Assembly (NCBI GenBank): GCA_009780675.1
Contig: WQZP01000021.1
Coordinates: forward strand, 1 to 36,873
DNA from: Spirochaetaceae bacterium
GTDB lineage: Bacteria > Spirochaetota > Spirochaetia > CADAEX01
DNA length: 36,873 bases
Reading direction: 5' to 3'
Program-made: the position numbers and the translations under genes
The notes under the pieces: model-generated
Database searches by the model: none
Seen by the model: the letters and a program-made list of their open reading frames with translations, nothing else
What the model was told of the DNA's origin: nothing
In this document: positions 1-32,412 of the stretch, piece by piece
Layout of the letters: every line of letters begins with the position of its first letter
How positions within the stretch are numbered: the first letter of the stretch is position 1

Positions 1-182
1 ATACCCATGATTGTGAATAAGTATGGATAAATGTTAATAAGTATTAATAATTATTCAGCAAATTATTTATTATAAGTAAAAGAATTACTTCTCTTTTACA
101 CATATTATATGTACTTATTATTACTATTATTAAAATTTATTAATATAATAATTATAAGAAAGATGAATATATGGAGAAAAAA
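1..182. other. AT-rich segment upstream of dnaN, candidate part of oriC
   Basis: No gene is visible. On the - strand reading, 12-20 is a perfect match to the DnaA box TTATNCACA (here TTATTCACA, seen on + as TGTGAATAA). It is followed at exact 10-bp intervals by near matches at 22-30 (TATGGATAA), 32-40 (TGTTAATAA) and 42-50 (TATTAATAA). A partial box in the other orientation lies at 51-59. The remainder to 170 is extremely A+T-rich, as in an unwinding element, and includes a run of TTA/CTA triplets at 112-132. The region between dnaA and dnaN is a common oriC site. dnaA itself is not in the window, so the assignment is inference. Confidence 0.5.
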
Positions 183-1283
183 ATGAAATTCAGATGCAAT
201 AAAAATTCCATTCTAAATGAAATATCAATCACACAAGATATTATTTCTTCAAAAAATACATTATCTATTCTTTCAAATGTTCTTCTTGAAGCAAATAATA
301 ATCTTCTTACAATAAAAGCAACAGATCTTAAAATAGGATTTGAAACGCAAATACCAGTATCTGTAGAAGAATCAGGAATAACTACTGTTTTTTGTGATAA
401 ATTGCTGGGAATTTTAAGAACAATGCCGGAAGGAGATATAAGCTTTTCTGTAGAAAAACAAAAACTTATTATAAGTTCGGAAAATAATAATATTATTTTT
501 CAGCTTAAAGTTATTGATGCTGAAAAATTTCCTTCTCTTAAAAGTATTTCTGATAATAATTATTTTACTGTTCCCCAGAAAGATTTTATTGAAATGATTA
601 CTCAAACAAGTTTTGCTGTCTCGGATGATGAAACAAGATACTTTATGAATGGAGTTTTTTTGGAAAAGAAAGAAAATAGCTTTGTAATGGTAGCAACAGA
701 TGGAAGAAGGCTTTCTTTTATAAAAAAAGAACTGGATTCTATTCCAGAAAACATGGAAAGTAGTATAATTCCTGTAAAAGTTCTTGGTCTTATAAAAAAG
801 CTTGCAGCAGGGGAAGGGGAATTTCTTGTAGCTATTTCCGATAAAACTTTTTTTATAAAATTTGATAACAATAAAATATATTCAAACCTTATTGAGGGGC
901 AATTTCCTAACTATCAACGGGTAATACCAGAAAAACAGGAACAAGTAGCAGTTATTTCCAAAGAAGAATTTCTTTCTGCTTTAAGAAGAGTTTCAGTTCT
1001 TGTTGAACAAAAGTCAAAAAGGGTCTTAATGAGATTTTATGATGGAAGCGCTGATATATATACAGAAGAAACAGAGATAGGAACAGCTAAGGAAACACTT
1101 TCATGCGAATATTCAGGCCCTGATTTTACGATGGTAATAAATTATGTTTACCTTCAAGAACCAATAAAAGTTATGGAAGAGGAAGATGTTTCTTTTAAAT
1201 TTACAGATCCCTCAAAAGCATTAACAATATCTTCTGTTCCTGAGCATGACTATTTTCATATTGTTATGCCAATGCAGGTTTAG
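183..1283 (+). CDS. dnaN: DNA polymerase III beta subunit (sliding clamp)
   Basis: This is the ring-shaped processivity clamp that tethers the replicative polymerase to DNA. The 366-residue length and three-domain architecture fit DnaN. Recognisable stretches are KNTLSILSNVLLEA near the N-terminus, VATDGRRLSF in the middle domain, EGQFPNYQRVIP, and the C-terminal HIVMPMQV that closes the protein-binding pocket. I chose ATG 183 because GGAG at 173-176 sits 6 nt upstream of it. The in-frame ATG at 171 would add MEKK and has no good ribosome binding site. The gene lies directly downstream of the putative origin and 24 nt ahead of recF, the usual replication-gene order. Confidence 0.97.
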   Translation: MKFRCNKNSILNEISITQDIISSKNTLSILSNVLLEANNNLLTIKATDLKIGFETQIPVSVEESGITTVFCDKLLGILRTMPEGDISFSVEKQKLIISSENNNIIFQLKVIDAEKFPSLKSISDNNYFTVPQKDFIEMITQTSFAVSDDETRYFMNGVFLEKKENSFVMVATDGRRLSFIKKELDSIPENMESSIIPVKVLGLIKKLAAGEGEFLVAISDKTFFIKFDNNKIYSNLIEGQFPNYQRVIPEKQEQVAVISKEEFLSALRRVSVLVEQKSKRVLMRFYDGSADIYTEETEIGTAKETLSCEYSGPDFTMVINYVYLQEPIKVMEEEDVSFKFTDPSKALTISSVPEHDYFHIVMPMQV

Positions 1284-1307
1284 GATAATTTAAAAGCAGG
1301 AAGTTTA

Positions 1308-2438
1308 TTGAGTTTTTTTTCTGTAAGTACATATAATTTTCGTAATCTGGAAAACACGCAGGTAAATACAAACGCGAAAAACATATTTCTCGTTGGAGAA
1401 AATGGGCACGGAAAGACAAATTTTCTTGAAGCAGTATATGTTTTATGTTTTGGTAATTCATTTAGGACAAAAATAGATTCTCTTTTTATAAAAGAAGAAG
1501 AAAAAGAGATGTCTGTAAAAGGTATCTATACTGAAAAAAAAGACAGCAACACTGATGTTACACCCAGCGCTAACCATGAATGGCAGCCAGAGCAGAATGG
1601 AATTAAAAACAGCATCCTGCTATCAATAGTTAAGGGAAAAAAAACAATTATCCTCAATGAAAAAAAAGTTAGGGATAGAAAAGAAATAATATATAATATC
1701 CCATGTGTTGTTTTTTCACATGATGACATCTATTTTGTAAACGGAACCCCGGAAAGAAGAAGGACATTTTTTAACCAGACAATAAGCCTTTTTGACTGTA
1801 ATTATCTTGATAATCTAAGACAATATGAAAGGATATTAAAAAACAGAAATGCTGTTCTAAAAAGTAATGATAAAGAAATAATATCAGTTTTAGACATACA
1901 ACTAGCAGAAAAAGGGATGGAGCTAATAAGAATAAGAGAAAAAATAACAGAAGAGTTTAATGAAACATTTTCCTCTGTTTTTTCAAAAGTATCAGCAATT
2001 GATTCAAAAATAAAAATACTATACAAACCATCCTGGGGTTTTGAATCAGATATTGAAAAAATAAAAAAAACACTTTCATCAAAAATAGAAGTAGAAACAG
2101 CGCTGGGAACAACCCTTTCAGGACCGCATAGAGACAGGTTTTATTATTATATGAATAAAAAAGATTTTATAAGGATCGCATCAACAGGTCAGACCAGATT
2201 GATATCTCTTGCATTAAAAGCAGCACAAGCAGAATTTTACAAAGAAAAAACCGGGAAAAAGCCTTTGATTCTTATGGATGATGCCCTTCTTGAGCTGGAT
2301 AATCCCAAAAAAATAAGATTTATAGAATCATTTCCTGAATATGAACAGGCATTTTTTACTTTTCTGCCAGGAGAGGAAAAAATTATTTCAGAAAAAGAAG
2401 GGTTATTTTATACAGTAAATAATGGCATTATTCGCTGA
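1308..2438 (+). CDS. recF: DNA replication and repair protein RecF
   Basis: SMC-like ATPase that acts with RecO/RecR to load RecA at gapped DNA and stalled forks. Walker A is GENGHGKTN at residues 30-38, the ABC-type signature LSGPHRDRF is near residue 270, and a Walker B-like LILMDDALLELD is near residue 320. At 376 residues it has normal length. The start is a TTG with AGGAAG at 1298-1303, 4 nt upstream. Residues about 72-100 (around DSNTDVTPSANHEWQPEQ) are polar and look like an insertion between two N-lobe strands that are normally joined by a short turn. The gene is probably cotranscribed with dnaN. Confidence 0.96.
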   Translation: MSFFSVSTYNFRNLENTQVNTNAKNIFLVGENGHGKTNFLEAVYVLCFGNSFRTKIDSLFIKEEEKEMSVKGIYTEKKDSNTDVTPSANHEWQPEQNGIKNSILLSIVKGKKTIILNEKKVRDRKEIIYNIPCVVFSHDDIYFVNGTPERRRTFFNQTISLFDCNYLDNLRQYERILKNRNAVLKSNDKEIISVLDIQLAEKGMELIRIREKITEEFNETFSSVFSKVSAIDSKIKILYKPSWGFESDIEKIKKTLSSKIEVETALGTTLSGPHRDRFYYYMNKKDFIRIASTGQTRLISLALKAAQAEFYKEKTGKKPLILMDDALLELDNPKKIRFIESFPEYEQAFFTFLPGEEKIISEKEGLFYTVNNGIIR

Positions 2439-2521
2439 CGAAGTGAGAGACGCGTGCAAGTTTGCTTGCGCATGACCGAACGAGGAGGTCGAACAAAGTG
2501 TATACACTTTGTTAGGGAAAG
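2439..2521. repeat. G+C-richer element with three successive inverted repeats
   Basis: This short spacer is clearly richer in G+C than its surroundings. It contains a stem of arms 2454-2460 and 2465-2471 (GTGCAAG/CTTGCGC, loop TTTG), a GACC/GGTC pair (2474-2477 and 2487-2490), and a perfect 22-bp palindrome at 2492-2513 with half-site AACAAAGTGTA. No T-run follows, so it does not look like an intrinsic terminator. A dispersed REP-like repeat or an RNA processing site is possible. I found no second copy in this window. Confidence 0.5.
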
Positions 2522-2806
2522 ATGAAAAAAGTAGGCGATTTTCTAAAAGATTTTCTTGATAATTTAGGAATACCATCAGAAAAAACAGAAACTATTTATT
2601 CCTGCTGGGGCGAAATAGCAGGGAAAGAGATAGCAGATAATTCAAGAGTTATTGATATAAAAAATGGGATAATTTTTGTGGAAACAGACCATTCAGGATG
2701 GATTCAGATAATAAATTTAAAAAAAGAACATATACTAAGAAAAATAAACGAGAAATTTCCAGAAAAAGAGATAAGAGAAATAAAAGTTATTCTAAAAAGA
2801 GTCTAA
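2522..2806 (+). CDS. dciA: DUF721 family protein, DciA-like helicase-loading factor
   Basis: This is a 94-residue DUF721 protein. The family pattern is visible: a W followed by AGKEIADNSRV (residues about 29-43), then IKNGIIFVETDHSGWIQ (about 46-62) and the leucine/lysine-rich helix LKKEHILRKINEKFP. DciA proteins of this family help load the DnaB helicase in bacteria lacking DnaC/DnaI, which suits its position beside dnaN and recF. GGGAAAG lies just upstream of the ATG. The C-terminal half is short compared with proteobacterial DciA, so the loader role rests on family and context. Confidence 0.8.
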   Translation: MKKVGDFLKDFLDNLGIPSEKTETIYSCWGEIAGKEIADNSRVIDIKNGIIFVETDHSGWIQIINLKKEHILRKINEKFPEKEIREIKVILKRV

Positions 2807-2966
2807 ATTAGCCTGCTTGCTGAATTGACACCATTTATATAATAAATTATTATAAATTTCTTAAAACCTCTTTTATATAGATTATAGTTCAATTTATAGA
2901 AAAGGATAAATTAATATAAAGATAAAACTCTAACTTAGGTTAGAAACAATATAAGGAGTTTCTTCA
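2807..2966 (+). promoter_or_regulatory. rpmH promoter and leader hairpin
   Basis: A sigma-70-type promoter is readable: TTGACA at 2825-2830, a 17-bp spacer, and TATTAT at 2848-2853. The leader then carries a 6-bp perfect hairpin with a 4-nt loop at 2929-2944 (TCTAAC-TTAG-GTTAGA), ending about 10 nt before the ribosome binding site AAGGAG at 2953-2958. The strong -35 fits a highly expressed ribosomal-protein operon. The function of the hairpin is unknown. Confidence 0.55.
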
Positions 2967-3122
2967 ATGAAAAGGACTTATCAGCCAAGCAAGGTAAAAA
3001 GAAACAGAAAATTCGGATTCAGAGCCAGAATGAAGACAGTTGGTGGAAGGCTTGTCTTAATGAGAAGAAGGCAAAAAGGAAGAAAGAAACTATCAATATC
3101 TGATGAGAAAAAACCTTACTAA
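2967..3122 (+). CDS. rpmH: 50S ribosomal protein L34
   Basis: A 51-residue, very basic protein starting [20 protein letters not shown], with the L34 hallmark [21 protein letters not shown]34 binds 23S rRNA in the large ribosomal subunit. It has a good ribosome binding site (AAGGAG, 8 nt before the ATG). Compared with many L34 proteins it has a slightly longer C-terminal tail (SISDEKKPY). That tail overlaps the start of rnpA by 20 nt, suggesting coupled translation. Confidence 0.97.
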
Positions 3123-3462
3123 AAAGGAAAGGATGAAAAAAAAGGATATTTCAAAAGTTTTTGAAGTATCGGAAAGTATAAAAATATCCTGTATAAGATT
3201 ATTGTATTATAAAAACAGGATTACCTGGAACAGAATAGCTGTTGTATTAAGGAAAGGGTACGGGAATTCTGTAGAGAGAAACTGGGCAAGAAGAGTTATA
3301 AAAGAAGTGTATAGGGAAGTAAAAAACAGTTTACCTTGTGGGTATGACTTTATATTTCTATTGACTGATAAAATAGCCGATTACAAGACTGCTAAAATGA
3401 TTATGGTTTCTCTTTTTAAGCGGGCAGGGCTTATGGATGTGGCTGAGAAATTTATTAAATAA
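3103..3462 (+). CDS. rnpA: Ribonuclease P protein component
   Basis: Protein subunit of RNase P, which helps the RNA subunit trim the 5' leader of pre-tRNAs. At 119 residues it is normal in length. The N-terminal [17 protein letters not shown] and the RNA-binding helix [17 protein letters not shown] (residues about 62-78, the RNR-like motif) are characteristic; a W replaces the usual second R of the RNR triplet. I keep ATG 3103 because the LTKKER segment is family-typical, although an internal ATG exists at 3133. The gene overlaps rpmH by 20 nt and yidD by 26 nt. Confidence 0.93.
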
Positions 3463-3664
3463 TATACTTATAGTTTTGGTTATTATATATAAAAAACTTA
3501 TCTCCCCATTACTCCCGCCTGCCTGTATTTATTATCCAAGTTGCTCAACATATGCAGTTGAGGCGCTGAAAAAACATGGCCCTCTTAAAGGCAGCTTCCT
3601 TTCCATAAAAAGAATTTTAAGGTGTCACCCTTTTTGCAATGGTGGGTATGACCCTGTCCCATAA
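3437..3664 (+). CDS. yidD: Membrane protein insertion efficiency factor YidD
   Basis: A 75-residue protein with an N-terminal hydrophobic or amphipathic helix (residues about 5-18) followed by the YidD/DUF37 signature: [27 protein letters not shown], and [14 protein letters not shown] at the C-terminus. The conserved cysteines are present. YidD is a small membrane-associated protein that supports YidC/Sec-dependent insertion. It lies between rnpA and yidC as in many bacteria. Two nearby ATGs exist (3433 and 3437), but only 3437 is in frame. Confidence 0.95.
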
Positions 3665-3679
3665 TGTGAGGAGATAAGT

Positions 3680-5434
3680 ATGTTGGATAGAAATACTATA
3701 TATGCGCTAATTTTGTCAGTTCTTGTTATTTCTGGAGGGTTTTATATTCAACAAAGACTCTTTCCATCACCTGAAAGAGCAGCCGCCGCAGGTATTGTAG
3801 ATGCTGGAAGAATAGAAATGGAACCAGCTGTTACACCAATGATTACACCATCAGAAGCTACTGACCCATTGTCTGCTATAACAGACAGAGCAGTAGATTT
3901 CGACTATTATAGAGAAATATTTTTTGAAACAGAAGTTTTTGACATAGTATTTTCCAATCGTGGTGGAACAATAAAATCAATAAGACTTAAAGAGCATTTA
4001 GATGGCGGTGAAATGCTTGAAATGCTTAATAAAAATACTGCGTCTTTAACAGCATTTAATCTCTATATGGGAGATTTTAATGCGCCTCCTTTAAATATAT
4101 ATTTTGATTCCAGAGTATTCAGCCAAGGTGACAGCAGGATTGTTGAATTCACAAAAGATGTAGATCTTCCTCCCAGAATGGGATTTGGCGAAACCACCCC
4201 GCTTACAATAACAAAAAGGTATGTTTTTAAACCATTTGATTATCTAATGGAATTGCAGGTACAGATAACAAACAGAAATAATTTTCCAATTCCACTGAAT
4301 AGTGATGGCTTTGCTTACACACTTGGTTTTGGTCCTCAAATAGGGCCTACATTCGAGAGACTGGACAGGCTCGGAGAATTTCGAAGATTTACTGTACTTG
4401 CGGATGGAAGAAGAAGAAATGTCAGAATGCCAAGAGGCAGGGGAGAAGTTGAACTTACTGAAAGGATAAGCTGGGCAGCTATTTCTGGAAGATATTTTAC
4501 ACTGATAGGAATCCCAGATGCCACATCATATACAACAGTTCTTTCAAACAGCTCTGTAGATGGCTTTGAAGAAGGCGCAAGACTTTTCTTTTCCCGACCA
4601 GTAATAGGAAGCTCTAATAGTTTAGATATTTTTAGATTTTATATTGGCCCTAAAAGTCCAGAGCATCTTAGAGCATATAATTATCCAGATAGAAATGGCT
4701 TTAGAATGGCAGGGCTAGATCTTGACCGGGCTCTTGATTCAAGATATATGCTTGGATGGCTTCAGGACATACTTAAAGCTTTATTAAACATTTTTTATGG
4801 TATGATCCCAAACTATGGAATAGCCATAATTCTGCTTACACTGGTTATAAGAATTTTACTAATTCCTCTTACCCATAAAAGTTATATAGCATCAACAAGA
4901 ATGGCAGGGCTTTCTCCTAAAATGAATGAAATCAGGGAGAAATATAAACACAATCCACAAAAAATGAATCAAGAAATGGGGGCTTTATATAAAAAATCAG
5001 GAGTAAACCCTTTAGGCGGATGTCTTCCTTTATTGCTTCAGATGCCTATTTTCTTTGCGCTGTATGGGCTTTTAAGTAGTCATTTTGAGTTGCGCGGCGC
5101 TGGCTTTATTAGCCCATGGATAACAGACCTTTCTGTAGCAGATTCTATTTTTAATTTTGCGCCAGGATCTGTTCCGATTTTCGGAAGCGATATAAGGTTG
5201 CTTCCTATTCTTATGGTTTTTTCACAAATTTTTTCAACAAAACTTATGCAAGCTCCGGGAGCAGCAAATAATCCTCAAATGAAGATGATGACATATATGT
5301 TGCCACTTATATTTCTTTTCTTCCTTTATGACGCGCCATCAGGACTTTTGCTTTACTGGACAGCGTCAAACGTGTTGGGTATTGCTCAACAAGTTATTGT
5401 AAATAGAATTATGAAAAAGAAAAAATCTGCATGA
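3680..5434 (+). CDS. yidC: Membrane protein insertase YidC/Oxa1
   Basis: Inner-membrane insertase that acts alone or with SecYEG. The protein has 584 residues: an N-terminal membrane anchor (about 7-24), a large periplasmic domain (about 40-345), and the C-terminal catalytic bundle. The bundle includes the TM segment containing the conserved arginine (VIRILLIPLTHKSY), the cytoplasmic loop LSPKMNEIREKYKHNPQKM, NPLGGCLPLLLQMPIFFALY, and a last TM ending LLLYWTASNVLGIAQQ. The long periplasmic domain shows the Gram-negative/spirochaete type rather than the short Gram-positive form. AGGAG lies about 7 nt upstream of the start. jag follows almost immediately. Confidence 0.97.
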   Translation: MLDRNTIYALILSVLVISGGFYIQQRLFPSPERAAAAGIVDAGRIEMEPAVTPMITPSEATDPLSAITDRAVDFDYYREIFFETEVFDIVFSNRGGTIKSIRLKEHLDGGEMLEMLNKNTASLTAFNLYMGDFNAPPLNIYFDSRVFSQGDSRIVEFTKDVDLPPRMGFGETTPLTITKRYVFKPFDYLMELQVQITNRNNFPIPLNSDGFAYTLGFGPQIGPTFERLDRLGEFRRFTVLADGRRRNVRMPRGRGEVELTERISWAAISGRYFTLIGIPDATSYTTVLSNSSVDGFEEGARLFFSRPVIGSSNSLDIFRFYIGPKSPEHLRAYNYPDRNGFRMAGLDLDRALDSRYMLGWLQDILKALLNIFYGMIPNYGIAIILLTLVIRILLIPLTHKSYIASTRMAGLSPKMNEIREKYKHNPQKMNQEMGALYKKSGVNPLGGCLPLLLQMPIFFALYGLLSSHFELRGAGFISPWITDLSVADSIFNFAPGSVPIFGSDIRLLPILMVFSQIFSTKLMQAPGAANNPQMKMMTYMLPLIFLFFLYDAPSGLLLYWTASNVLGIAQQVIVNRIMKKKKSA

Positions 5435-5453
5435 TATGCAAGGAGATATTAGT

Positions 5454-6119
5454 ATGGAAATGGAATTTGAAGGGAAAACAGAAAAAGAAGCTATAGAAAA
5501 AGCTAGAACAGAGCTGGGGCTGGAAAGAGATGAATTTGATGTTGAAATTATCGAGACATCAAAAAAAGGGATATTTTTTAAAAAGGGAAATGTAAGAATA
5601 AAAGTTCATCTTATTAACGAGAGTCAGCCAGGTGAAGCAAAAAGATATGAACCAGAAACAGAATGTGAAAAAGAGACAAAAAAGTTCCTTGAAATTCTTT
5701 TGGAAAAAATGGGGCTTCCTGGAAAAGTTTCTATTTCTTTCAGGGAAGATAACAAAATAGGTTTGACAATAGAATCTGAATATTCAGGTATTCTTATAGG
5801 CAAAAAAGGGAAAAACCTGGATGCAGTGCAACTTTTATTAAATGTTTTTGCCGGAAGGTTTGAGGGTTCTCCCAGAATCATTATAGATGCAGAGAATTAC
5901 AGAGTAAGAAAAGAAGAAAGCCTTGTAAGGCTTGCTATAAAATCCGCAGAGCAGGTTAGAAAAAACAGAAGATCAAAACTCCTTGAGCCAATGAACCCTT
6001 TTGAAAGAAGAGTTGTTCATACTGCTCTTAATGGCATGGAAGATATTGCAACAAAAAGCGATGGAGAAGGCCTTTTCAAGCAGGTTAGAATTATTTATAG
6101 GGAAAAATCAGGGCTGTAG
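5454..6119 (+). CDS. jag: Jag/KhpB family RNA-binding protein (Jag-N, KH, R3H)
   Basis: Three domains are visible in order: the Jag N-terminal domain (EFEGKTEKEAIEKARTELGL then EIIETSKKGIFF), a KH domain with the GILIGKKGKNLDAVQLLL core, and a C-terminal R3H domain (ERRVVHTALNG). Jag/KhpB binds RNA, often with KhpA, and is usually encoded beside yidC. I prefer ATG 5454 because AGGAGA (5441-5446) is 7 nt before it. The upstream ATG at 5436 would add MQGDIS and would have only yidC coding sequence as leader. Length is about 221 residues. Confidence 0.93.
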   Translation: MEMEFEGKTEKEAIEKARTELGLERDEFDVEIIETSKKGIFFKKGNVRIKVHLINESQPGEAKRYEPETECEKETKKFLEILLEKMGLPGKVSISFREDNKIGLTIESEYSGILIGKKGKNLDAVQLLLNVFAGRFEGSPRIIIDAENYRVRKEESLVRLAIKSAEQVRKNRRSKLLEPMNPFERRVVHTALNGMEDIATKSDGEGLFKQVRIIYREKSGL

Positions 6120-6175
6120 TCTACTTTGAGGCTGGTGTTTTTCATGAAATTAACAGGCTTTAGGGCAGGTATTGA

Positions 6176-7261
6176 TTAAAAAGAGGTCTTTTTTCTTGCT
6201 TTATTTTTGTAGTGTAAAACAAGAAAAAGAGAAGTAAAAACAGCCCAGGTAGTTATAAAAACCATAAAACCAGAATCAAGTTTTCTGTTTTCAAGAAAAG
6301 CGTATAAAAATCCTGTAAGCCCTGCAAAAATGGAAAAAAGATATATAACAAAAAGGATTTTTTTCTGGGATAATCCAAAATCAATAAGCTTGTGATGAAC
6401 ATGCTCCCTATCCGACGATGCTATTGAAAGCTTTCTCCGCCTTCTTCTTAAAATTGCGGCAATCATATCCAGTACAGGTATTATCAAAACAATAAGGGGC
6501 ATAAATATTGTCTGGGACGATCCACCCCCTATATTATTTATTAGCGGAATTACAGCAAGACAAAATCCAAGCAAAAGGCTTCCGGAATCTCCCATAAATA
6601 TTTTTGCAGGGGGAAAATTAAACACCAGAAAACCTAGAATAGTGCCAAAAAGAATAAAAGAGAGGCTTGCAGCTGTATAATTTTGTGTTATAAGGAAAAT
6701 TATGCCATAAAAAAAAGATGCTATTAATGCAATACCACCTGCAAGACCGTCCATCCCATCCATCAGATTAATGGCATTGCAGAGGCTTATTATCCAGAAA
6801 ACAGTTATAACATGAGAAAAAAGACCAAGCGGAATATCCTGAGCCAGAAAAGGAATGTAAAAAAATTCAAAGTTAAAACCGCCAAAAGAAACAATCAATG
6901 CAGCAGTAAGTTGTATAAGAAGTTTATGCCATGCTCTTATGCTGACGAAATCATCAGCAACGCCTAAGATGGTAATAATGAGAAATCCTGCTGCCAGAAA
7001 AAGATAATGATATCTTGATATAGTATTGAGATCGAAATCAGTAAATTTGCAGATTACGACAAATAAAAAAACAGTTAACAAAAACGAGATAAATATACCA
7101 ACCCCGCCAATTCTCGGCATATTGCCAGAATGAATTTTTCTGTCATTTGTGATGTCATACCATCTTTTTTTATGGGACAAAGATATTAAAAAAGGGGTTG
7201 CCACCAAATTTATAATTAAAGCAACTATGCATATTAATAATAGAAAAATAATATTGTTCAT
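6176..7261 (-). CDS. wecA: WecA/TagO-type undecaprenyl-phosphate sugar-1-phosphate transferase
   Basis: Polytopic membrane enzyme of the MraY/WecA family that moves a sugar-1-phosphate (often GlcNAc-1-P) from a UDP-sugar to the polyprenyl-phosphate carrier, starting lipid-linked glycan assembly. Visible motifs are MPRIGGVGI (48-56), LGVADDF with D103/D104, NAINLMDGMDGLAGG (162-176), KIFMGDSGSLLLGF and the C-terminal REHVHHKL. About ten TM segments fit the 361 residues. The HVHHKL form and the lack of MraY-specific sequence favour WecA/TagO over MraY. It is convergent with jag and divergent from ahcY, and could prime the glycan locus downstream. The exact sugar is not readable. Confidence 0.88.
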   Translation of the reverse strand: MNNIIFLLLICIVALIINLVATPFLISLSHKKRWYDITNDRKIHSGNMPRIGGVGIFISFLLTVFLFVVICKFTDFDLNTISRYHYLFLAAGFLIITILGVADDFVSIRAWHKLLIQLTAALIVSFGGFNFEFFYIPFLAQDIPLGLFSHVITVFWIISLCNAINLMDGMDGLAGGIALIASFFYGIIFLITQNYTAASLSFILFGTILGFLVFNFPPAKIFMGDSGSLLLGFCLAVIPLINNIGGGSSQTIFMPLIVLIIPVLDMIAAILRRRRRKLSIASSDREHVHHKLIDFGLSQKKILFVIYLFSIFAGLTGFLYAFLENRKLDSGFMVFITTWAVFTSLFLVLHYKNKARKKTSF

Positions 7262-13790: not shown

Positions 13791-14879
13791 ATGAAAAAAA
13801 AAGCTCTTATAACAGGGATTACAGGTCAGGACGGCGCTTATCTTGCTGAACTGCTATTGTCAAAAAATTACGAGGTACATGGGATAAAAAGACGCAGTTC
13901 TCTGTTTAATACACACAGGATTGATCATCTTTACAAAGATCAGCATGAGAAAGGGGTTGATTTCAAACTTCATTTTGGAGATATGACAGACTCTACAAAT
14001 CTGATAAAAATTGTGCAGGATGTAAAGCCCGATGAGATTTATAACCTTGCAGCACAATCGCATGTAAAAGTTTCTTTTGAAACTCCTGAGTATACAGCAA
14101 ATGCTGATGGCGTTGGCACTTTGCGACTGCTTGAGGCAATACGTATTCTTGGGCTTGAGAAAAAGACAAAATTTTATCAGGCATCCACATCGGAACTTTA
14201 TGGGCTTGCCCAGGAAATTCCCCAGAAGGAGACGACTCCATTTTATCCAAGAAGCCCTTATGCTGCAGCAAAGCTTTACAGTTACTGGATAACTGTAAAT
14301 TACAGGGAAGCATATAATATGTTTGCGTGTAACGGAATTCTGTTTAATCACGAAAGCCCTATCCGCGGAGAAACATTTGTAACAAGAAAAATAACAAGAG
14401 CAGCCGCGCGCATATACTTGAGATTGCAGGAAAAACTTTTTCTGGGAAATCTTGATTCAAAGAGGGATTGGGGGCATGCAAAAGATTATGTAGTTGCCAT
14501 GTGGCTTATTCTTCAGCAGGAAAAACCAGAGGATTTTGTTATAGCAACAGGAGAAGCCTATACTGTAAGAGAATTTGTTGAACTTGCTTTCCGGGAAGTA
14601 TCTATAGAACTGGAGTGGAAAGGGAGTGGCGTTGATGAAAAGGGAATCAATAAAAAAACAGGAGAAGTTGTTATTGAAGTAGATCCAAGATATTTTAGGC
14701 CAACAGAAGTGGATATCCTTTTGGGCGACCCAACAAAAGCCCGCAAACAGCTTGGCTGGAAACATAAATATGAACTTTTGGATCTTGTTAAAGATATGGT
14801 TAAAAATGATATTCTGGAAGCAAAAAAAGACTCTATCCTTAAAGAGGAAGGGTTTAGGCTTTTTGATTTTAATGAATAG
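13791..14879 (+). CDS. gmd: GDP-mannose 4,6-dehydratase
   Basis: NADP-dependent short-chain dehydrogenase that converts GDP-mannose to GDP-4-keto-6-deoxymannose, the first step of GDP-L-fucose synthesis. The cofactor loop is [10 protein letters not shown] (9-18). Catalytic positions are visible as ASTSELYG and YAAAKLY (YxxxK), and substrate-binding signatures are [15 protein letters not shown] and DWGHAKDYV. At 362 residues it is normal. The usual double arginine of HESPRRGE is IR here, a mild change. AAAGGTG lies 6 nt before the ATG. fcl is the next gene. Confidence 0.97.
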
Positions 14880-14901: not shown

Positions 14902-15951
14902 ATGGATAAAAACAGTAAGATATATGTTGCAGGTCACAAAGGACTTGTGGGCTCTGCTCTTGTACGGCGACTTGAAAAAGCAGGTTATAATAATATTATT
15001 GCAAGAACTCTATTGGAGCTGGATCTTTTACAGCAAAGAGAAGTGGAAAAATTTTTTGAACAAGAAAGACCAGAATATGTTTTTCTTGCTGCTGCAAAAG
15101 TAGGTGGTATACACGCAAACAATACATATAAAGCAGATTTTATATATGAAAACATAATGATAGCAGCCAATGTAATAAATTCTTCGTATAAATATGGTGT
15201 TAAAAAACTCTTGAACCTTGGGTCTTCCTGCATATATCCCAGAGAAGCAAAACAGCCCATGAAAGAAGAATATCTTTTAACAGGAATTCTTGAGTCCACT
15301 AACGAACCATATGCTATAGCGAAAATTGCGGCAATAAAATTATGCCGATACTATAATGAACAGTATGGAACAAATTTTATTTCTGTAATGCCAACAAATC
15401 TTTACGGTCCGGAAGATAATTTTGATTTTGAAAATTCCCATGTTTTACCAGCTCTTGTAAGAAGGCTCTATCTTGGAAAGTTGTTAATGGAAAATAACTT
15501 TGGAGAGATAAGAAAAAATCTTGATTTTTATGGGCGAACAACAACTTATTCCAATGCAAGTGAAAAAGAAATTATAGAAAAGCTGGAAAAACATCTTATC
15601 CATAAAGACAAAGTTGTTATTTGGGGAACAGGTGCTCCTTACAGAGAATTTCTTTTTTCTGATGACCTGGCAGGCGCCTGTGTTTTTCTTATGGAAAAAT
15701 ATAATGCAAAAGATATTGGGGAAATTATCAATATTGGTACAGGCAAGGATCTTACAATAAAGGAACTGGCAGAACTTATAAAAAGCATAACCGGTTATAA
15801 CGGGGCAATTGTTTTTGATTCTTCAAAACCAGATGGAACTCCAAAAAAGCAACTGGATGTCTCCAGGCTGCAAAATCTTGGCTGGAAAGAGCAAGTAACT
15901 TTAGAAGAAGGAATAGGTCGGGTTGCGAAAGTTATGAGCAGGTCATTATGA
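14902..15951 (+). CDS. fcl: GDP-L-fucose synthase
   Basis: Epimerase/reductase that turns GDP-4-keto-6-deoxymannose into GDP-L-fucose, completing the pathway begun by Gmd. Visible parts: [16 protein letters not shown] cofactor loop, [33 protein letters not shown] with the catalytic serine/cysteine area, [12 protein letters not shown] (YxxxK), and [16 protein letters not shown]. At 349 residues it is longer than the usual 310-320; an extra segment of about 30 residues ([10 protein letters not shown] through IEKLEKHLI) sits before the GTGAP motif. Its stop overlaps the wzm start as ATGA. Confidence 0.96.
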
Positions 15952-16790
15952 GTGAAAAGCCCATTACCATTATTAAACCCCAAAACAACATTTTTGCCCT
16001 TGATCTGGGAACTTTATGGAAATACCGCGATCTTATACGGATGTTCGTAAAGCGGGATTTTGTCACATTTTATAAGCAAACAATATTGGGACCACTTTGG
16101 TTTCTTATACAACCGCTTTTTACATCAGCAATGTTCATGCTTATTTTTGGAAGGCTTGCGAACATATCTACCGATGAAACCCCTCAAATGTTGTTTTACA
16201 TGGCTGGGATAATAAACTGGACCTATTTTTCCGAGTGTTTCACTAAAACAAGCAATACATTTGCCAATAACAAGGGGCTTTTTGGAAAAATATATTTTCC
16301 ACGACTTGCTGTTCCTCTTGCGGATGTCATAACCAACATGATCAGATATGCAATACAATTTTCATTATTTCTGGTCTTTTTCTTCTATTTTCTTGCAATC
16401 GGCGCACCTGTTTCACCCAGTTGGCTTATTGTTTTTACACCCATAGTTGTTATGTATCTTGCTCTCTTAAGCCTTGGTTATGGTATGTGGATATCTGCAC
16501 TTACAGCAAAATATTGGGACCTAAGATTTGCGCTTGCGTTTGTAGTTCAACTTTGGATGTACGCGACTCCGGTAGTGTATCCATTGTCGCTTGTTCCTGA
16601 AAAGTACAGAATGTTGATGATATTAAATCCTGTAGCGCCAGCAATTGAATTTTTTAAAATAGCTTGGCTCGGCGCTGGAACTCTTGATCCTTTACACACT
16701 GGTTTGAGTATGCTTCTTGCCCTATTAATTCTTTTTGGCGGAATAATTATTTTTAACAGAACCGAAAAAACATTTGTGGATACAATATAA
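15948..16790 (+). CDS. wzm: Polysaccharide ABC exporter, membrane subunit (Wzm type)
   Basis: ABC-2 family permease of 280 residues with six TM helices. The N-terminal amphipathic segment ([23 protein letters not shown]) and [12 protein letters not shown] are typical for Wzm/TagG-type exporters, as is [18 protein letters not shown] near the C-terminus. It would form the channel that moves a lipid-linked glycan across the inner membrane with Wzt at 17494. Unusually, the two subunit genes are separated by a HEPN/nucleotidyltransferase pair. The start overlaps the fcl stop by 4 nt and the stop overlaps the HEPN start by 1 nt. Confidence 0.94.
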
Positions 16791-17203
16791 TGGATGATAT
16801 TAGATGGATCCAGCGATTTAACAATTATAAAAAAGCGCTTGCTGTACTGGGGAGATCTGTAACTGTTGCGCAGGAAAGAAATTTAAACGAAATGGAAGAA
16901 CAAGGTTTAGTTCAAGGATTTGAATTTACCTTTGAACTTTCATGGAAATTATTGAAAGACTATTTGGAATCAAAAGGGTTTAAAGATTTTCACGGTTCAA
17001 AAGATACATTTAAAATGGCTTTTCAGGAGGGACTGATCAGCGATGGCGAATTATGGATGGAAATGATTGAAAGCAGAAACCGATCTTCGCATACTTATGA
17101 AGAAACTATTGCAAGGCAAATAATATCTTTAGTCCTTTCAAAATATTATTTAAAATTTAAAGAACTGGCAGAAAAAATGAATTGTTACTTATCACAGGAA
17201 TAA
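16790..17203 (+). CDS. HEPN-domain protein, HI0074/HepT-like nucleotidyltransferase partner
   Basis: A 137-residue all-helical protein of the nucleotidyltransferase substrate-binding (HI0074) type. Typical segments are VQGFEFTFELSWKLLKDYLE (41-60), DTFKMAFQEGLI and EMIESRNRSSHTYEE. The last contains R96-x4-H101-x-Y103, the RX4HXY pattern described for HepT toxins, where the tyrosine is the target of AMPylation by the partner MntA. It is followed after 6 nt by the minimal nucleotidyltransferase gene. Position inside wzm-wzt and overlap with the wzm stop (TAATG) imply cotranslation with the exporter. Whether it is a toxin or a regulator is not readable. Confidence 0.88.
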   Translation: MDDIRWIQRFNNYKKALAVLGRSVTVAQERNLNEMEEQGLVQGFEFTFELSWKLLKDYLESKGFKDFHGSKDTFKMAFQEGLISDGELWMEMIESRNRSSHTYEETIARQIISLVLSKYYLKFKELAEKMNCYLSQE

Positions 17204-17209: not shown

Positions 17210-17497
17210 ATGTATGGTATTTCACAAAATGCTCTGGAAAAAATAAAAGCAATTTTATTTTCAGTGCAGGGAGTAGAGTCTGTTATTTTATATGGCTCTC
17301 GGGCAAAAGGCAACTACAAAGAAGGTTCGGATATCGATCTGACGGTAAAGGGAAATTTAACTTTTGAAGATTTAGTGAAAATGAGTGTTAGTTTGGAAGA
17401 TTTGAATCTACCTTGGAAAATTGATCTTTCTTTATATAGCCAAATAAAAAATGAGAACCTATTGGAACATATCGACAGAGTTGGGGTAGCAATATGA
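17210..17497 (+). CDS. Minimal nucleotidyltransferase (MNT, MntA/HI0073-like)
   Basis: A 95-residue polymerase-beta-type nucleotidyltransferase. The catalytic motif is GSRAKGNYKEGSDIDL, giving G29-S30-x10-D41-x-D43, with a third acidic residue in KIDLSLY (D72). All residues needed for metal binding and nucleotidyl transfer are present, so it looks active. In known HepT/MntA systems this partner AMPylates and neutralises the HEPN protein. Here the pair is ordered HEPN first, then MNT. Its stop overlaps the wzt start by 4 nt (ATGA), tying its translation to the exporter ATPase. Confidence 0.88.
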   Translation: MYGISQNALEKIKAILFSVQGVESVILYGSRAKGNYKEGSDIDLTVKGNLTFEDLVKMSVSLEDLNLPWKIDLSLYSQIKNENLLEHIDRVGVAI

Positions 17498-18804
17498 GCG
17501 AAACAGTAATTAAAGTTGAAAACCTTTACAAAGAATATAAGTTGGGCGTTATAAGCCATGGCACTCTCTATAAAGATATGCAGTCCTGGTGGGCAAAAAT
17601 CCGCGGGAAAGAAGATCCTAATTCGCTTATTTCAACACACCATGGGGAAGATGCAGAAAAGACGAGTTTTCTTGCTTTAAACGATGTTTCTTTTGAAATA
17701 AAAGCAGGAGACAGGGTTGGAATAATAGGTAAAAATGGCGCGGGCAAATCTACGCTTTTAAAAATTCTTTCACGAATCACATCTCCAACAAGAGGGAGTG
17801 TAACAATTCATGGAAAGGTAGGTTCTCTTCTCGAAGTTGGCACAGGATTTCACCAGGAGCTTACAGGCAGGGAAAATATTTTTCTTAATGGCTCGATACT
17901 TGGCATGAATAAGCGTGAGATTTCCCGCAAAATGGATGAGATTATTGATTTTGCGGGCATTGAAAAACACATTGATACGCCCGTTAAGCGCTATTCCAGC
18001 GGTATGATGGTGCGTCTTGGCTTTGCTGTTGCTGCTCATTTGGATACAGATATTCTTATTGCCGACGAAGTTCTGGCTGTAGGGGATGCGGAGTTTCAGA
18101 GAAAAGCTTTGGCCAAAATGGGCGACTTGAGCACAGGGGAAGGGCGAACAGTGTTGTTTGTGAGTCATAATATGGGAGCTGTGGAAAGATTATGTAATAT
18201 CGGTTTGATATTGCATAATGGAGTATTGATTGATAAATCAGATGATATAAAATATTCTATAAAAAAATATCTCAATGTTGGTCAAGAAGATACTACTAAA
18301 TTAAGTTATGAATGGATTAACAATGGGCAAGTACCAAATAATCAATGGTTTAAACCGATTAGTTTTTTTATAACAGATGACAATATGAATATTTTAAAAG
18401 ATACACACTCGAATGATAAAGATTTGTGGATTAATATTAAAGGCATAATTAAAGAAAATGATTCTGCTTTTTGTATTGGGTATGCCTTATATAGTGAAGA
18501 TAATGCTTTACTTTATTGGTCTTATCAAACCGATGTTCCTCAAGCCGAATGGCCTAAATTTAAACTAGGGGAATTTCATTTGCGAAGCAAAATACCAAAA
18601 CGGTTTCTTAATGAAGGTACATACAGAGTTGAATTTATATGCAGTCTGCACTGTCGGCAGTGGATATTAGATCCAGAAGTTAATGCGCCAGCAATTTTTT
18701 TTGAAATAAATGGAGGACTTAGTGATTCGCCATATCTTTTTAATAAAAGACCCGGTGTCTTAAGCCCCATTCATGCATGGGAGATAGTGTCTGAAGATCA
18801 ATAA
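17494..18804 (+). CDS. wzt: Polysaccharide ABC exporter ATPase with C-terminal glycan-binding domain (Wzt type)
   Basis: Residues about 1-235 are the nucleotide-binding domain: Walker A GIIGKNGAGKSTLL (77-90), signature RYSSGMMVRLGF, Walker B ILIADEVLAVGD and the H-loop LFVSHNMG. Residues about 280-430 form a beta-rich Wzt C-terminal domain (SFFITDDN, GYALYSEDNALLYWS, EGTYRVEFICSLH). In known systems that domain binds the modified chain end before export. This implies a chain whose length is set by a terminal modification. The 3' third (from about 18190) is visibly more A+T-rich than the ATPase part, suggesting the domain was exchanged to suit the local glycan. The start overlaps the MNT stop. 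Confidence 0.94.
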   Translation: MSETVIKVENLYKEYKLGVISHGTLYKDMQSWWAKIRGKEDPNSLISTHHGEDAEKTSFLALNDVSFEIKAGDRVGIIGKNGAGKSTLLKILSRITSPTRGSVTIHGKVGSLLEVGTGFHQELTGRENIFLNGSILGMNKREISRKMDEIIDFAGIEKHIDTPVKRYSSGMMVRLGFAVAAHLDTDILIADEVLAVGDAEFQRKALAKMGDLSTGEGRTVLFVSHNMGAVERLCNIGLILHNGVLIDKSDDIKYSIKKYLNVGQEDTTKLSYEWINNGQVPNNQWFKPISFFITDDNMNILKDTHSNDKDLWINIKGIIKENDSAFCIGYALYSEDNALLYWSYQTDVPQAEWPKFKLGEFHLRSKIPKRFLNEGTYRVEFICSLHCRQWILDPEVNAPAIFFEINGGLSDSPYLFNKRPGVLSPIHAWEIVSEDQ

Positions 18805-19029: not shown

Positions 19030-20868
19030 ATGAAACTATCAATTATAACAATCAACAAAAACAATTTTGAAGGGCTTGAAAAAACAATAGTTAGTGTTAT
19101 TGGACAAACATATTCTGATTTTGAATATATTATAATAGACGGTGCATCAACTGATGGAAGCATCGATATAATAAAAAAGTATTCAGATAAAATAAATTAT
19201 TGGGTTTCAGAAGCAGACCCCGGTATTTATAATGCAATGAATAAAGGTATTCGAATAGCAAAAGGAGAATTTTGTTTATTTTTGAATAGCGGTGATTCTT
19301 TAATATCATCTGACACTTTGATTAATGTATTTAATGAAATTAGCAGTCTCCCCACGTCTGATATTTACTATAGCGATAGAATAAATTCTGACGGGCAAAT
19401 ATTTAGATTTCCAAAATCATTGACTACTAGTTATTTAATAGAAGATGTTATTAGTCATCAAAATTCATTAATAAAGCGAGCCCTTTTTTATGAACATGAA
19501 TTTTATAATGAAAATTTAAAACTTGCTTCAGACAGAGAATTTTTTTTAAATGAAATGTGGAAATATAAAAGTAAATTTACATATATAAAAACAAATATTT
19601 CTATTTTTGATCCTTATGGACTAGGTTCTCAAGATACGCCATTGCGTAGAGTGGAAAATAAGATTTTTTTTAATAATGTTTTTGGAGAAATATCTGAATA
19701 TATTATTGAATTAAATAAAGAATTAAACAAGTATCGAGGGACTGTGTATGGAAATATAATAGAAAATTTTGGAAGTTCATTTTTTTTAACTTTTTTGTTA
19801 AGGCTATATCGCTTAATTATACGGCGAGTATTAAAATTAAATAATATTTTTAAAAAAATATTGTCGTGCTTCTTGCCGCAATGTCTTCTCCAGAATCTTT
19901 TTATTTATATAAAAGAATATTTTTTATCAATTTTTACAAAAAAAATTAGAATATGTTTTACGAATTTTGGAGATATTCCGTATGATTTTTTTACTGTTCC
20001 AATAAAAAAAACATTCGAAGTGCATAATCTATCTTATCGAATTGTAAATTACTATAAGCCACATATAAATTTCTTTTCTGTATTTGGAAGCAAAAAGAAG
20101 CTAAAAAGTTCTAAAGCGTTGTGTAAAATATTTTTTACTGGTGAAAATGTTAATCGTATTGATTATATACAGTATAAAGGAAACTGTATTGATAGTGTTG
20201 ATTTATCCATGGGATTTGATTATGTAGATTCAGGCAATTATTTGCGGTTTCCTCTTTGGTTATTATATTACTTTAAACCGTTCAATACCATAGATGATGT
20301 TAGCAATATATTGGCATTATTTAAAAATACTTATAGAAAAACAAAATTTTGTTCTTTAGTTGCGAGCCATGATAATAGTGGTATTAGAGCAAAAATGTTT
20401 AGTGATCTTTCTGCGATAGCACATATAGATTGCGCTGGTGTTTTATTACATAATGATACTTCTTTACATAATATATACGACAATAACAAATCCTTATATT
20501 TGCAACAATACAAATTTAATATTTGCCCTGAAAACTCAATAAGCCCTGGCTATGTTACAGAAAAACTTTTTCAATCTTTATATTCCGGATGTATTCCTAT
20601 ATACAATGGTTGGAGTAAAGATCCAGAACCTGATATTGTAAATCCAAATATTATTCTATGGTATGATGAATCCGATGAGCAGAATAACAAGTATGCGATG
20701 AATGAGGTTAGAAAATTACATGAAAACGATAAACTTTATCGTTCCTTTGTAGAACAACCATTTTTTTGCGATACTGCTGTTGATAAAATCTATACAATTT
20801 TGCAACAATATACAGACAAACTGCAATCAGTAATAAGTAACACATTAACACATCTAAAAAGAGTTTAA
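19030..20868 (+). CDS. Fusion protein: GT2 glycosyltransferase plus GT10 (alpha-1,3/4-fucosyltransferase type)
   Basis: A 612-residue protein with two glycosyltransferase units. Residues 1 to about 225 are a GT2 domain: SIITINKNNFEGLEKTI, IIIDGASTDGSIDII, GIYNAMNKGI, LNSGD and a late ASDREFF. A basic, hydrophobic linker follows (about 250-305). Residues about 310-595 are GT10-like, with FCSLVASH, then YKFNICPENSISPGYVTEKL and LYSGCIPIYNGW near residues 495-530, the GDP-fucose binding signature of bacterial FutA-type enzymes. The donor GDP-fucose is made by gmd/fcl upstream. The two domains may add consecutive sugars. Confidence 0.88.
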   Translation: MKLSIITINKNNFEGLEKTIVSVIGQTYSDFEYIIIDGASTDGSIDIIKKYSDKINYWVSEADPGIYNAMNKGIRIAKGEFCLFLNSGDSLISSDTLINVFNEISSLPTSDIYYSDRINSDGQIFRFPKSLTTSYLIEDVISHQNSLIKRALFYEHEFYNENLKLASDREFFLNEMWKYKSKFTYIKTNISIFDPYGLGSQDTPLRRVENKIFFNNVFGEISEYIIELNKELNKYRGTVYGNIIENFGSSFFLTFLLRLYRLIIRRVLKLNNIFKKILSCFLPQCLLQNLFIYIKEYFLSIFTKKIRICFTNFGDIPYDFFTVPIKKTFEVHNLSYRIVNYYKPHINFFSVFGSKKKLKSSKALCKIFFTGENVNRIDYIQYKGNCIDSVDLSMGFDYVDSGNYLRFPLWLLYYFKPFNTIDDVSNILALFKNTYRKTKFCSLVASHDNSGIRAKMFSDLSAIAHIDCAGVLLHNDTSLHNIYDNNKSLYLQQYKFNICPENSISPGYVTEKLFQSLYSGCIPIYNGWSKDPEPDIVNPNIILWYDESDEQNNKYAMNEVRKLHENDKLYRSFVEQPFFCDTAVDKIYTILQQYTDKLQSVISNTLTHLKRV

Positions 20869-27623: not shown

Positions 27624-28373
27624 ATGAAACTGTCAATTATAACAATCAATCGTAACAATTCTCATGGGCTGAAAAAAACATGTTTAAGTGTTGCTGCGCA
27701 GACATTTAAAGAGTTTGAGTGGATAATAATAGATGGCGCCTCTAAGGATAATAGTGTTGATATAATAAAGCAACATTCAAATAATCTAAGCTACTGGATA
27801 TCAGAACCAGATTCAGGCGCATATAATGCCATGAATAAAGGGATCAGAAAAGCAACAGGAGACTATTTATTATTTTTAAACAGTGGAGACTATCTTTTGT
27901 ATCCCTGGACTTTACAAGAAGTAATTGATGAAATAAAAATATCCAAAGAAGCAGATGTATATTTTTGCGATGCTGTTTTAAGTACATATCAGTTATTAAA
28001 ATATCCTCTTGATATTGACTTTAACTTTTTTAAAAAAGCAATGATAAATCATCAAAATTGTCTTATAAAACGAGAACTTTTTAAAGATCGGTTATATGAT
28101 GAAAACTATCGCATTTCGGCGGATTGGTATTTTTTTCTCAAAGAAAGTTTTGACAATAATATTATATTCCATCATATAAAAACAAATATAGCCATATACG
28201 ACATGAATGGTATCAGTATTAATAATAAGAAGGAAGCGCGCGCTGAACGGAAAAGTATTTTTAAAAAAATGAATATCGGTGAAAGAAAATATTTATTATG
28301 GAATATTCTCAAAATGGGTAAATATTTATTGCCCTATGGTCTTTATAAATTAATTCAATTGCTTAAAAAATAA
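27624..28373 (+). CDS. GT2 family glycosyltransferase, stand-alone relative of the fusion N-domain
   Basis: A 249-residue GT2 enzyme: SIITINRNNSHGLKKTC, then WIIIDGASKDNSVDII, GAYNAMNKGIRKATGDYLLF, LNSGD, INHQNCLIKRELF and ISADWYFFLKE. It is clearly paralogous to the first domain of the GT2-GT10 fusion at 19030 and shares almost the same 5' sequence. It shows that the GT2 unit also exists as a free enzyme in this locus. A late basic amphipathic stretch (LLWNILKMGKYLLPYGLYKL) may attach it to the membrane. Substrates are unknown. Confidence 0.9.
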   Translation: MKLSIITINRNNSHGLKKTCLSVAAQTFKEFEWIIIDGASKDNSVDIIKQHSNNLSYWISEPDSGAYNAMNKGIRKATGDYLLFLNSGDYLLYPWTLQEVIDEIKISKEADVYFCDAVLSTYQLLKYPLDIDFNFFKKAMINHQNCLIKRELFKDRLYDENYRISADWYFFLKESFDNNIIFHHIKTNIAIYDMNGISINNKKEARAERKSIFKKMNIGERKYLLWNILKMGKYLLPYGLYKLIQLLKK

Positions 28374-30728: not shown

Positions 30729-31595
30729 ATGGATAAAAATAATCAGATAGCAGTAATGCTATTGGTAAATAGTAATGAAAATCAAGTTAATAGACTCATA
30801 AGACATTTATCAGAAGATTTTGATATTTATGTACACATTGATAAAAGAAGTTCCATAAAAATTAATGAATTAAAAAATGTATATGTTTATAAAGAATATA
30901 AAACATACCATAGCTCATGCAATCAAACCGTAGCAACCCTTTTTTTATTGGAAAAGGCTTTTTTAAAAGGCTATAACCGATATTTACTAATTTCCGGGCA
31001 AGATTTACCAATAAAATCAAATAAAGAAATAAAATCTTTTTTTGAAAATAATAATAAAGAATATATTGATATTAATAAAATACCGAGATCAGACGGTTGG
31101 CCGGATAATATGAATGGATTAACGAAATACAATTTTTATAAAATATATATTGGAAATAATTCCAATATAGCAAAAAAATTATATGAAGTTATTCAAACAT
31201 GGTTTCGTAAATTTTCAAAAATAAAACCCAGAAAAATAGATTATGATTTTTATGGAGGATCAAATTGGACAAACTATACTCATACTTGTGTAAAAAAAAT
31301 ATTTGAATGGTTAGAAAATAATAAAAAATATATTGACCGTTTCAAATGGACAAATAGTTCTGATGAAATATTCTATCAAACAATAATTAATCAATTAGAT
31401 GGAATATTTATTGAAAATGACTGTTTGAGATATATTGATTGGCAAACTGGCCCTGAATTTCCAAGGACATTAAGGGTAGAAGATTATGAAAAAGTAATAA
31501 ATTCAAATTATTTATTTGCAAGAAAATTTGATGAAAAAGCAGATAATAGGATCATAGAAATGATATATAAGAAAATAGAAAATGAAAAATACTAA
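30729..31595 (+). CDS. GT14 family (Branch/xylosyltransferase-type) glycosyltransferase
   Basis: A 288-residue protein with the core-2/I-branching fold: IYVHIDKRSSIKINEL, a YLLISGQDLPIKSNKEI donor-side motif, NWTNYTHTC, SSDEIFYQTIINQ, RYIDWQTGPEFPRTLRVEDY and FARKFDEKADN at the C-terminus. Bacterial members are usually annotated as beta-1,6-N-acetylglucosaminyltransferases, but the same family includes the UDP-xylose-using peptide xylosyltransferases. With a UDP-xylose cassette 4 kb upstream, either donor is possible. GGAG is 7 nt before the ATG. It overlaps the next gene by 14 nt. Confidence 0.85.
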   Translation: MDKNNQIAVMLLVNSNENQVNRLIRHLSEDFDIYVHIDKRSSIKINELKNVYVYKEYKTYHSSCNQTVATLFLLEKAFLKGYNRYLLISGQDLPIKSNKEIKSFFENNNKEYIDINKIPRSDGWPDNMNGLTKYNFYKIYIGNNSNIAKKLYEVIQTWFRKFSKIKPRKIDYDFYGGSNWTNYTHTCVKKIFEWLENNKKYIDRFKWTNSSDEIFYQTIINQLDGIFIENDCLRYIDWQTGPEFPRTLRVEDYEKVINSNYLFARKFDEKADNRIIEMIYKKIENEKY

Positions 31596-32412
31596 GATCA
31601 TCCTATGCTCAGCTTATGGAAACCATAGCAATAGATTATTTCAAAGTATTCATTTTGAGGCATTTTGTAAAGAGCATAATGTAGATTTTACCAATCCTAC
31701 GTTTTCAGACATGCGAAAATATTATTTTCCGAACAGCAGTACTAATTGGCGATTTAATTTTATATTGCAAAAATTTCCTGTAATATTCAAAATTATGAAA
31801 AAATTAAATTTAGTAAAAGTTGTTTCATTTGACAGTGAAAACCAAAATAACATTACAGAATTGCTTGCATTATTATCTTCCCAACCACGTCGTCTTTTTG
31901 TTAGTGGTTGGGCTTTTAGGGTCCATGAACTAACTAAAAAATATCAAAATTATTTTATTTCTAAATATTCTTTGAGGGAAGAATATTTTAAGAATAATAT
32001 CTTATTAGATAAAATAAATAAATTAAAAGAAAGCGATAAAATAGTTGTTGGAGTTCACATCCGAAGGGGCGATTACAAATATTATATGGAAAGTAAATAT
32101 TACTTTGATGATAATGTTTATATAAAATATATGGAAAAAATAAAAAAAGAAATAGACGTAAAGTATAATAAGAAATATGGGTTTATTATATTTTCAAATG
32201 AAAATCTATCAATTTCTGAAAATGAATATACTTTCATATCAAATAATGAGTGGTATGTTGATCATATGCTGATGAGTAAATGTGATTTTCTGCTAGGTCC
32301 TCCAAGCACATTTACAATGTGGGCAAGTTATATTGGTAAAGTAAAATATTTTCATATTGAAAATGATAATGGCAATATTGATTTAGATAGTTTTACATAT
32401 TGTATAGGATAG
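31582..32412 (+). CDS. GT11-like alpha-1,2-fucosyltransferase
   Basis: A 276-residue protein with GT11 features: an N-terminal ILCSAYGNHSNRLFQSIHFE in place of the usual GGLGNQ segment, the donor-binding VGVHIRRGDYKYYM (HxRRxDY) in the middle, FIIFSNENLSISE, and a C-terminal DHMLMSKCDFLLGPPSTFTM that matches the last GT11 motif. The likely donor is GDP-L-fucose from gmd/fcl. The N-terminal loop is divergent, so the linkage is less certain than for the gene at 36156. Confidence 0.75.
   Translation: MKNTKIILCSAYGNHSNRLFQSIHFEAFCKEHNVDFTNPTFSDMRKYYFPNSSTNWRFNFILQKFPVIFKIMKKLNLVKVVSFDSENQNNITELLALLSSQPRRLFVSGWAFRVHELTKKYQNYFISKYSLREEYFKNNILLDKINKLKESDKIVVGVHIRRGDYKYYMESKYYFDDNVYIKYMEKIKKEIDVKYNKKYGFIIFSNENLSISENEYTFISNNEWYVDHMLMSKCDFLLGPPSTFTMWASYIGKVKYFHIENDNGNIDLDSFTYCIG

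Follow-up and report, generated by a model that had tools for sequence, protein, structure and literature searches.

A GT2–GT10 glycosyltransferase fusion in a glycan locus of a spirochaete

Results

The window analysed here, a stretch of 36,873 nucleotides of spirochaete DNA (contig WQZP01000021.1), carries a glycan locus in which four genes lie just upstream of, and on the same strand as, a fused glycosyltransferase gene. They encode gmd, a GDP-mannose 4,6-dehydratase for GDP-fucose supply (13791..14879, +; TIGR01472, 616 bits against a cut-off of 415), an fcl-like GDP-L-fucose synthase (14902..15951, +; NF047922, E 5.8e-135, 450 bits, somewhat below the cut-off of 500), a Wzm-like ABC-2 glycan exporter permease (15948..16790, +; PF01061, E 5.2e-16) and the Wzt-like ATPase of the glycan exporter, which has a C-terminal extension (17494..18804, +; PF00005, E 1.9e-22; best NCBIfam match of the TagH/Wzt type). 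The locus is thus equipped both to supply GDP-fucose and to export glycans through an ABC transporter. Downstream of the fusion there are more GT2, GT4, GT11 and core-2-type transferases, including a second likely fucosyltransferase of the locus, of GT11 type (31582..32412, +; PF01531, E 2e-10), along with a UDP-glucose dehydrogenase-like protein and a protein of the nucleotide-sugar epimerase/dehydratase family.

Two further features of the window are recorded here. Between the Wzm and Wzt genes is a HepT-like gene (16790-17203; PF08780, E 2.8e-42), which together with a 95-aa nucleotidyltransferase-like ORF carrying GSRAKGNYKEGSDIDL (17210-17497) makes a pair of the HepT/MNT toxin-antitoxin type. 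The left part of the window (171-7261) holds dnaN, a recF-like gene, yidC and jag, then a WecA/MraY-type gene on the other strand, a cluster of replication-origin type that puts the glycan locus near the likely chromosome origin. FlaA of the PF04620 family marks spirochaetes; this flagellar sheath protein is present in the genome (E 7.4e-68), and none of 14 control genomes gave a match.

The fused gene (19030-20868, +) runs from ATG to stop in one frame of 612 aa, with zero internal stops. A first-pass annotation had described it as one chain with a complete GT2 and a complete GT10 domain joined by a basic linker, and each element of that description was borne out. Residues 1-198 (19030..19623, +) form a WcaE-like GT2 domain of GT-A fold (Pfam PF00535, TIGR04009, pLDDT mostly >85), and residues 199-303 (19624..19938, +) a helical linker that is basic and amphipathic around 250-276, as judged by charge and hydrophobic moment, with low pLDDT at 199-262. 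The FucT_N half of GT10, with a TGEN motif, follows at residues 304-420 (19939..20289, +; PF18025 and a phmmer alignment to 2nzw), and the GT10 C-terminal half, with GYVTEK and PIYNGW motifs, runs from residue 421 to residue 612 and the stop codon (20290..20868, +; PF00852 and alignment to 2nzw/5zoi). All three Pfam matches exceed their curated cut-offs: Glycos_transf_2 (PF00535) at residues 4-121 (E 2.7e-19, 70.2 bits against 23.3), FucT_N (PF18025) at 320-413 (E 1.3e-12, 48.4 bits against 27.2) and Glyco_transf_10 (PF00852) at 437-574 (E 2.9e-11, 43.8 bits against 23.9).

The C-terminal domain is a member of GT10 by family models, catalytic residues and its GT-B fold, and the similarity proposed for it was found by sequence as well as by structure. 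It resembles the alpha-1,3-fucosyltransferase of H. pylori in sequence (2nzw, phmmer E 3.5e-14), and the same enzyme is the best Foldseek match of the predicted structure in the PDB (2nzx, E 1.8e-12; 2nzw was also returned); the whole-query TM-score is low, at 0.33, as the query comprises two domains. In the alignment to 2nzw, TGEN falls on Glu95 of the H. pylori enzyme, its proposed base, and GYVTEK on Glu249, also a catalytic residue (PMC4202792). The fusion is the sole GT10 match in the whole 2.4-Mb genome.

The N-terminal domain is a member of GT2, with Glycos_transf_2 above its cut-off and a GT-A fold. Its NSGD and ASD motifs are conserved among close relatives; only by analogy might they be read as the DXD-like site and the base, respectively. 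The wcaE model TIGR04009 matches residues 1-197 with E 2.2e-22, but its 79.5 bits are far under the 369-bit cut-off, and the domain is therefore WcaE-like rather than a WcaE equivalog. Foldseek matches to GT2 structures in the PDB included WrtF, TarS, TarP and SpsA. Among the nearest solved relatives are the GlcNAc transferases TarS/TarP and the GDP-fucose enzyme WrtF, with near-equal scores, and chondroitin synthase is about as close.

The GT2 donor could itself be GDP-fucose, in which case both domains would be fucosyltransferases and two fucoses would be added. WrtF, deposited as a fucosyltransferase with GDP-fucose, tops the GT2 fold matches beside TarS and is also found by sequence (E 4.7e-8); the distant WcaE likeness points the same way, since the fucose-adding steps in colanic acid synthesis are attributed to wcaE and wcaI (PMC12075129), and Bacteroidetes have a GT2 family of fucosyltransferases (PMC8698959). 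However, TarS/TarP and chondroitin synthase score equally by sequence, the shortfall from the wcaE cut-off is large, and a donor is not predictable from GT2 sequence at such distance. We regard two fucose additions as quite unlikely.

The same fusion was sought in other genomes, as the first-pass annotation had proposed, and an orthologue was found in a second species of the genus (genome G001). Residues 2-610 align at 59% identity to this orthologue, an intact 626-aa frame; by region, identity is 0.69 for GT2 (1-200), 0.62 for FucT_N, 0.65 for the C-terminal half of GT10 and 0.23 for the linker (266-304). The domains have dN values of 0.22-0.31, against about 1.0 for the linker; dS is saturated, so dN/dS is a rough guide only. 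By this comparison both domains appear clearly constrained, and since they are conserved while the linker drifts, both look functional. The orthologue is flanked by a 375-aa glycosyltransferase and a 257-aa ORF, whereas the fusion in the window has Wzt upstream and a 329-aa GT2 downstream. The flanking genes thus appear to differ, and the fusion has probably been kept while its surroundings changed.

These data also bear on whether two genes were merged by an assembly or frame error. The two genomes concerned are drafts, of 82 and about 140 contigs, which would allow such an artefact. Against it, an independent genome holds an intact orthologous fusion, constraint extends across both domains, and the domain border has a few TTG/GTG codons but lacks an in-frame ATG. 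With the fusion present in another genome we reject an assembly error, which we consider extremely improbable.

An AlphaFold2 model of the fused chain (20-row alignment; mean pLDDT 84.3) has two confident folds, at residues 1-198 and about 300-611, joined by long helices of low pLDDT at 199-262. With a pTM of 0.57, the model does not define how the domains sit relative to each other or whether a channel links them. Linker windows starting at residues 250-265 have a net charge of +4 to +6 and a hydrophobic moment of 0.56-0.68, and those starting at 253-259 reach +5 to +6 and 0.63-0.68. This basic, amphipathic pattern is typical of a membrane-surface helix and suggests membrane binding. The stand-alone GT10 nearest to the fused GT10 (L123, 329-1201) starts with a similar basic stretch, and the linker may, rather speculatively, have descended from a GT10 membrane anchor. 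The gene in question seems to be split in its draft genome, with two overlapping frames near the 3' end (L123:329-1418), through decay or sequencing error.

A linker of this kind would also suit domains joined for co-expression or shared membrane anchoring, each acting on separate residues with no direct hand-over. It is long, poorly conserved and predicted to be flexible, and the basic N-terminal stretch of the stand-alone GT10 implies that it may simply be an old membrane anchor. On the other hand, two species retain the fusion in what appear to be different gene surroundings, which fits a joint-function unit. We consider fusion without hand-over rather unlikely and favour joint action of the two domains.

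Relatives of the two halves also occur apart. The window contains a stand-alone GT2 gene (27624..28373, +), the nearest in-window relative of the fused GT2, with 47% identity over residues 1-226; in a tree of 61 GT2 domains it is the sister of the fused GT2s of the window and its orthologue (support 99/96), so the relationship that had been proposed for it holds. Elsewhere, a WcaE-like GT2 gene lies directly before a GT10 gene in a Bacteroidota locus (L006), directly behind one, with overlapping ORFs, in a genome that, judging by group sizes, appears to be that of a treponeme-like spirochaete (L084), and one gene away from a GT10 gene in a further locus (L080). Across the survey loci, adjacency of WcaE-type GT2 to GT10 was not enriched (1/91 adjacent ORFs against 2/129 other ORFs), and such split neighbours therefore serve as illustration, not proof.

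GT2–GT10 fusions were also found outside this orthologous pair. On the same contig as the orthologue, about 17 kb from it, G001 carries a second, unrelated fusion of 667 aa (L048:12361-14364, -), and a genome from another family of the class (G586) carries one of 575 aa, in which Pfam finds GT2 and GT10. In the 667-aa chain Pfam finds GT2, and GT10 is marginal (22.9 bits against a cut-off of 23.9); the GT10 match passes in the genome search (24.8 bits) and reaches E 1e-52 with an iterated profile on the fetched loci. In all, 4 of 58 distinct GT10 places in the sampled Spirochaetota are GT2 fusions. The samples were two overlapping sets, of the class and of the phylum, of about 395 genomes each, with frame length as a screen and long frames alone fully inspected. 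One long candidate, a 495-aa frame in G404, resolved to shorter ORFs without a GT2 domain.

In a tree of 66 GT10 domains the fusions fall in three places, which needs three changes. The closest relatives of the fused GT10 are stand-alone spirochaete GT10 enzymes, in one clade with support 100/100. Forcing all four fusions into one clade was rejected (AU p 0.0018), and rejection was weaker for a clade of the window fusion, its orthologue and the G586 fusion (p 0.030); since the groups were defined with the tree already in view, both p values are indicative. The GT2 tree (61 domains) also places the three fusion types on separate branches, with the G586 GT2 on a long one. The simplest reading of these trees is three independent fusions, the alternative being an old fusion followed by loss or by swapping of domains. 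As the GT2 partners differ among the three, no single disaccharide is implied for all, and these differing partners also lend something to fusion without hand-over.

Beyond spirochaetes, 26 of the 27 GT10 frames in 395 Bacteroidota genomes (the phylum of L006) were short, at 285-364 aa. The remaining one is a Bacteroidota chain of 2450 aa (L122:1248-8600, -) in which GT10 occurs together with two GT2 domains, an FkbM methyltransferase, GT4 and TPRs. Among the matches listed for 347 genomes of the phylum of L008 (Arcobacter), the longest GT10 frame was 505 aa, with frames of 440-505 aa taken by length alone. Phage and plasmid records had no place covering 80% of the query, hence no full fusion, and viral contigs yielded no relative. 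A Prevotella candidate with a long match span (L005) is not the same fusion: its WcaE-like GT2 is followed by a different stretch, not GT10. This 513-aa protein (L005:6001-7542) joins the GT2 to a second glycosyltransferase-like stretch, so partners other than GT10 may also have been joined to the WcaE-like GT2 lineage.

Discussion

The fused frame, both folds, the GT10 catalytic residues, the constraint on the domains and the presence of GDP-fucose genes nearby are direct observations, from which we infer enzyme activities, donor, acceptor, order of transfer and membrane binding. The protein is probably a bifunctional transferase, giving two sugars to one and the same lipid-linked glycan before its export by Wzm/Wzt. 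It would act on the cytoplasmic face of the inner membrane, where the GT2 domain would add one sugar to the lipid-linked glycan and the GT10 domain would add L-fucose, taken from GDP-fucose that the gmd and fcl enzymes of the locus supply. By analogy with other GT10 enzymes, the fucose linkage would most likely be alpha-1,3 or alpha-1,4. The linker, probably membrane-bound, may act as a flexible tether through which the intermediate is passed on locally, and the neighbouring Wzm/Wzt exporter would then carry the finished glycan across the membrane. The recurrence of GT2–GT10 fusion, on the simplest reading at least three separate times, and the proven two-step action of PgtA (PMC6939170) speak for such a bifunctional enzyme.

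The first-pass annotation had read the fusion as suggesting that fucose is attached directly to the GT2 product, giving a fixed disaccharide branch. The true GT2–GT10 fusion stands, and the two domains probably serve the same glycan, yet fusion alone leaves the order of transfer unfixed; it supports joint action on one glycan, while a direct fucose acceptor, a branch and a fixed disaccharide are plausible steps beyond it. We lean slightly towards the GT2 sugar being transferred first and then receiving the fucose, because decoration of existing chains is usual for GT10 enzymes, a general expectation from Lewis antigen synthesis (PMC4202792), and because PgtA works so.

The GT10 domain might instead add fucose first, with GT2 building on it, or both sugars might be placed on the same acceptor residue; we consider such a reverse or branched order possible though unlikely. 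In its favour, the Gal-, Xyl- and Fuc-transferase domains of the chlorovirus protein A111/114R serve a core with hyperbranched fucose (PMC7826918), so fucose can itself be an acceptor, and domain order does not predict reaction order in the two PgtA forms (PMC6939170). The habit of GT10 enzymes of decorating an existing chain speaks against it, and the GT2 sugar first remains our preferred order.

Multi-domain transferases are already well known (PMC11231755, PMC7826918, PMC6939170). We found no description of a bacterial GT2–GT10 chain in the full-text literature, subscription journals and CAZy tables being beyond the scope of the search. The most interesting part is the repeated independent fusion. 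A tentative generalization, which we rate somewhat short of an even chance, is that spirochaetes repeatedly fused GT10 to unrelated GT2s and that in each fusion the two steps are coupled, so that an exported surface glycan receives a fixed disaccharide containing fucose. Such proteins would be bacterial counterparts of eukaryotic PgtA, with a fucosyltransferase from another family.

If the domains work in sequence, the fusion would be a ready means of attaching a fucosylated disaccharide with one gene, and would offer a first way into the fucosylated surface glycans of spirochaetes that have received little study. The three independent fusions would then also be a natural experiment on whether transferases, once fused, invariably act on adjacent sugars, a rule often assumed in gene annotation. 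If the domains do not work in sequence, the fusion would be a warning against inferring reaction order from fusions.

Among known systems, the alpha-1,3-fucosyltransferase of H. pylori (GT10; 2NZW, 2NZX, 5ZOI) is like the C-terminal domain in sequence, in fold and in its Glu95 and Glu249 equivalents. It differs in that heptad repeats and C-terminal amphipathic helices accompany its single domain (PMC4202792), whereas the spirochaete protein has GT2 and a basic linker first. The stand-alone spirochaete GT10 enzymes are the closest GT10 relatives and are without the GT2 fusion.

PgtA of Dictyostelium and Toxoplasma also has GT2 and fucosyltransferase domains in one cytoplasmic chain (PMC6939170). 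It is a beta-1,3-Gal/alpha-1,2-Fuc transferase of proven sequential action, in which the galactose added by GT2 accepts the fucose in either domain order (PMC6939170). Its fucosyltransferase is, however, GT74 and not GT10, and it acts on a protein-linked glycan (Skp1) in eukaryotes. As the fused domain here is GT10, the protein is not of PgtA type, and the comparison is one of working principle only.

The chlorovirus PBCV-1 protein A111/114R likewise has its fucosyltransferase as the C-terminal domain of a chain with several glycosyltransferases (PMC7826918), but it has three domains, is viral, and its donors are known from hydrolysis assays only; the names GT2 and GT10 are absent from PMC7826918. 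Klebsiella WbbB and the O4/O7 O-antigen polymerases of the ABC-transporter pathway share the arrangement of several glycosyltransferase modules per chain and a glycan exported by Wzm/Wzt (PMC11231755). These polymerases differ in pairing other glycosyltransferase families and in having proven polymerising activity, whereas the activity of the spirochaete fusion is predicted.
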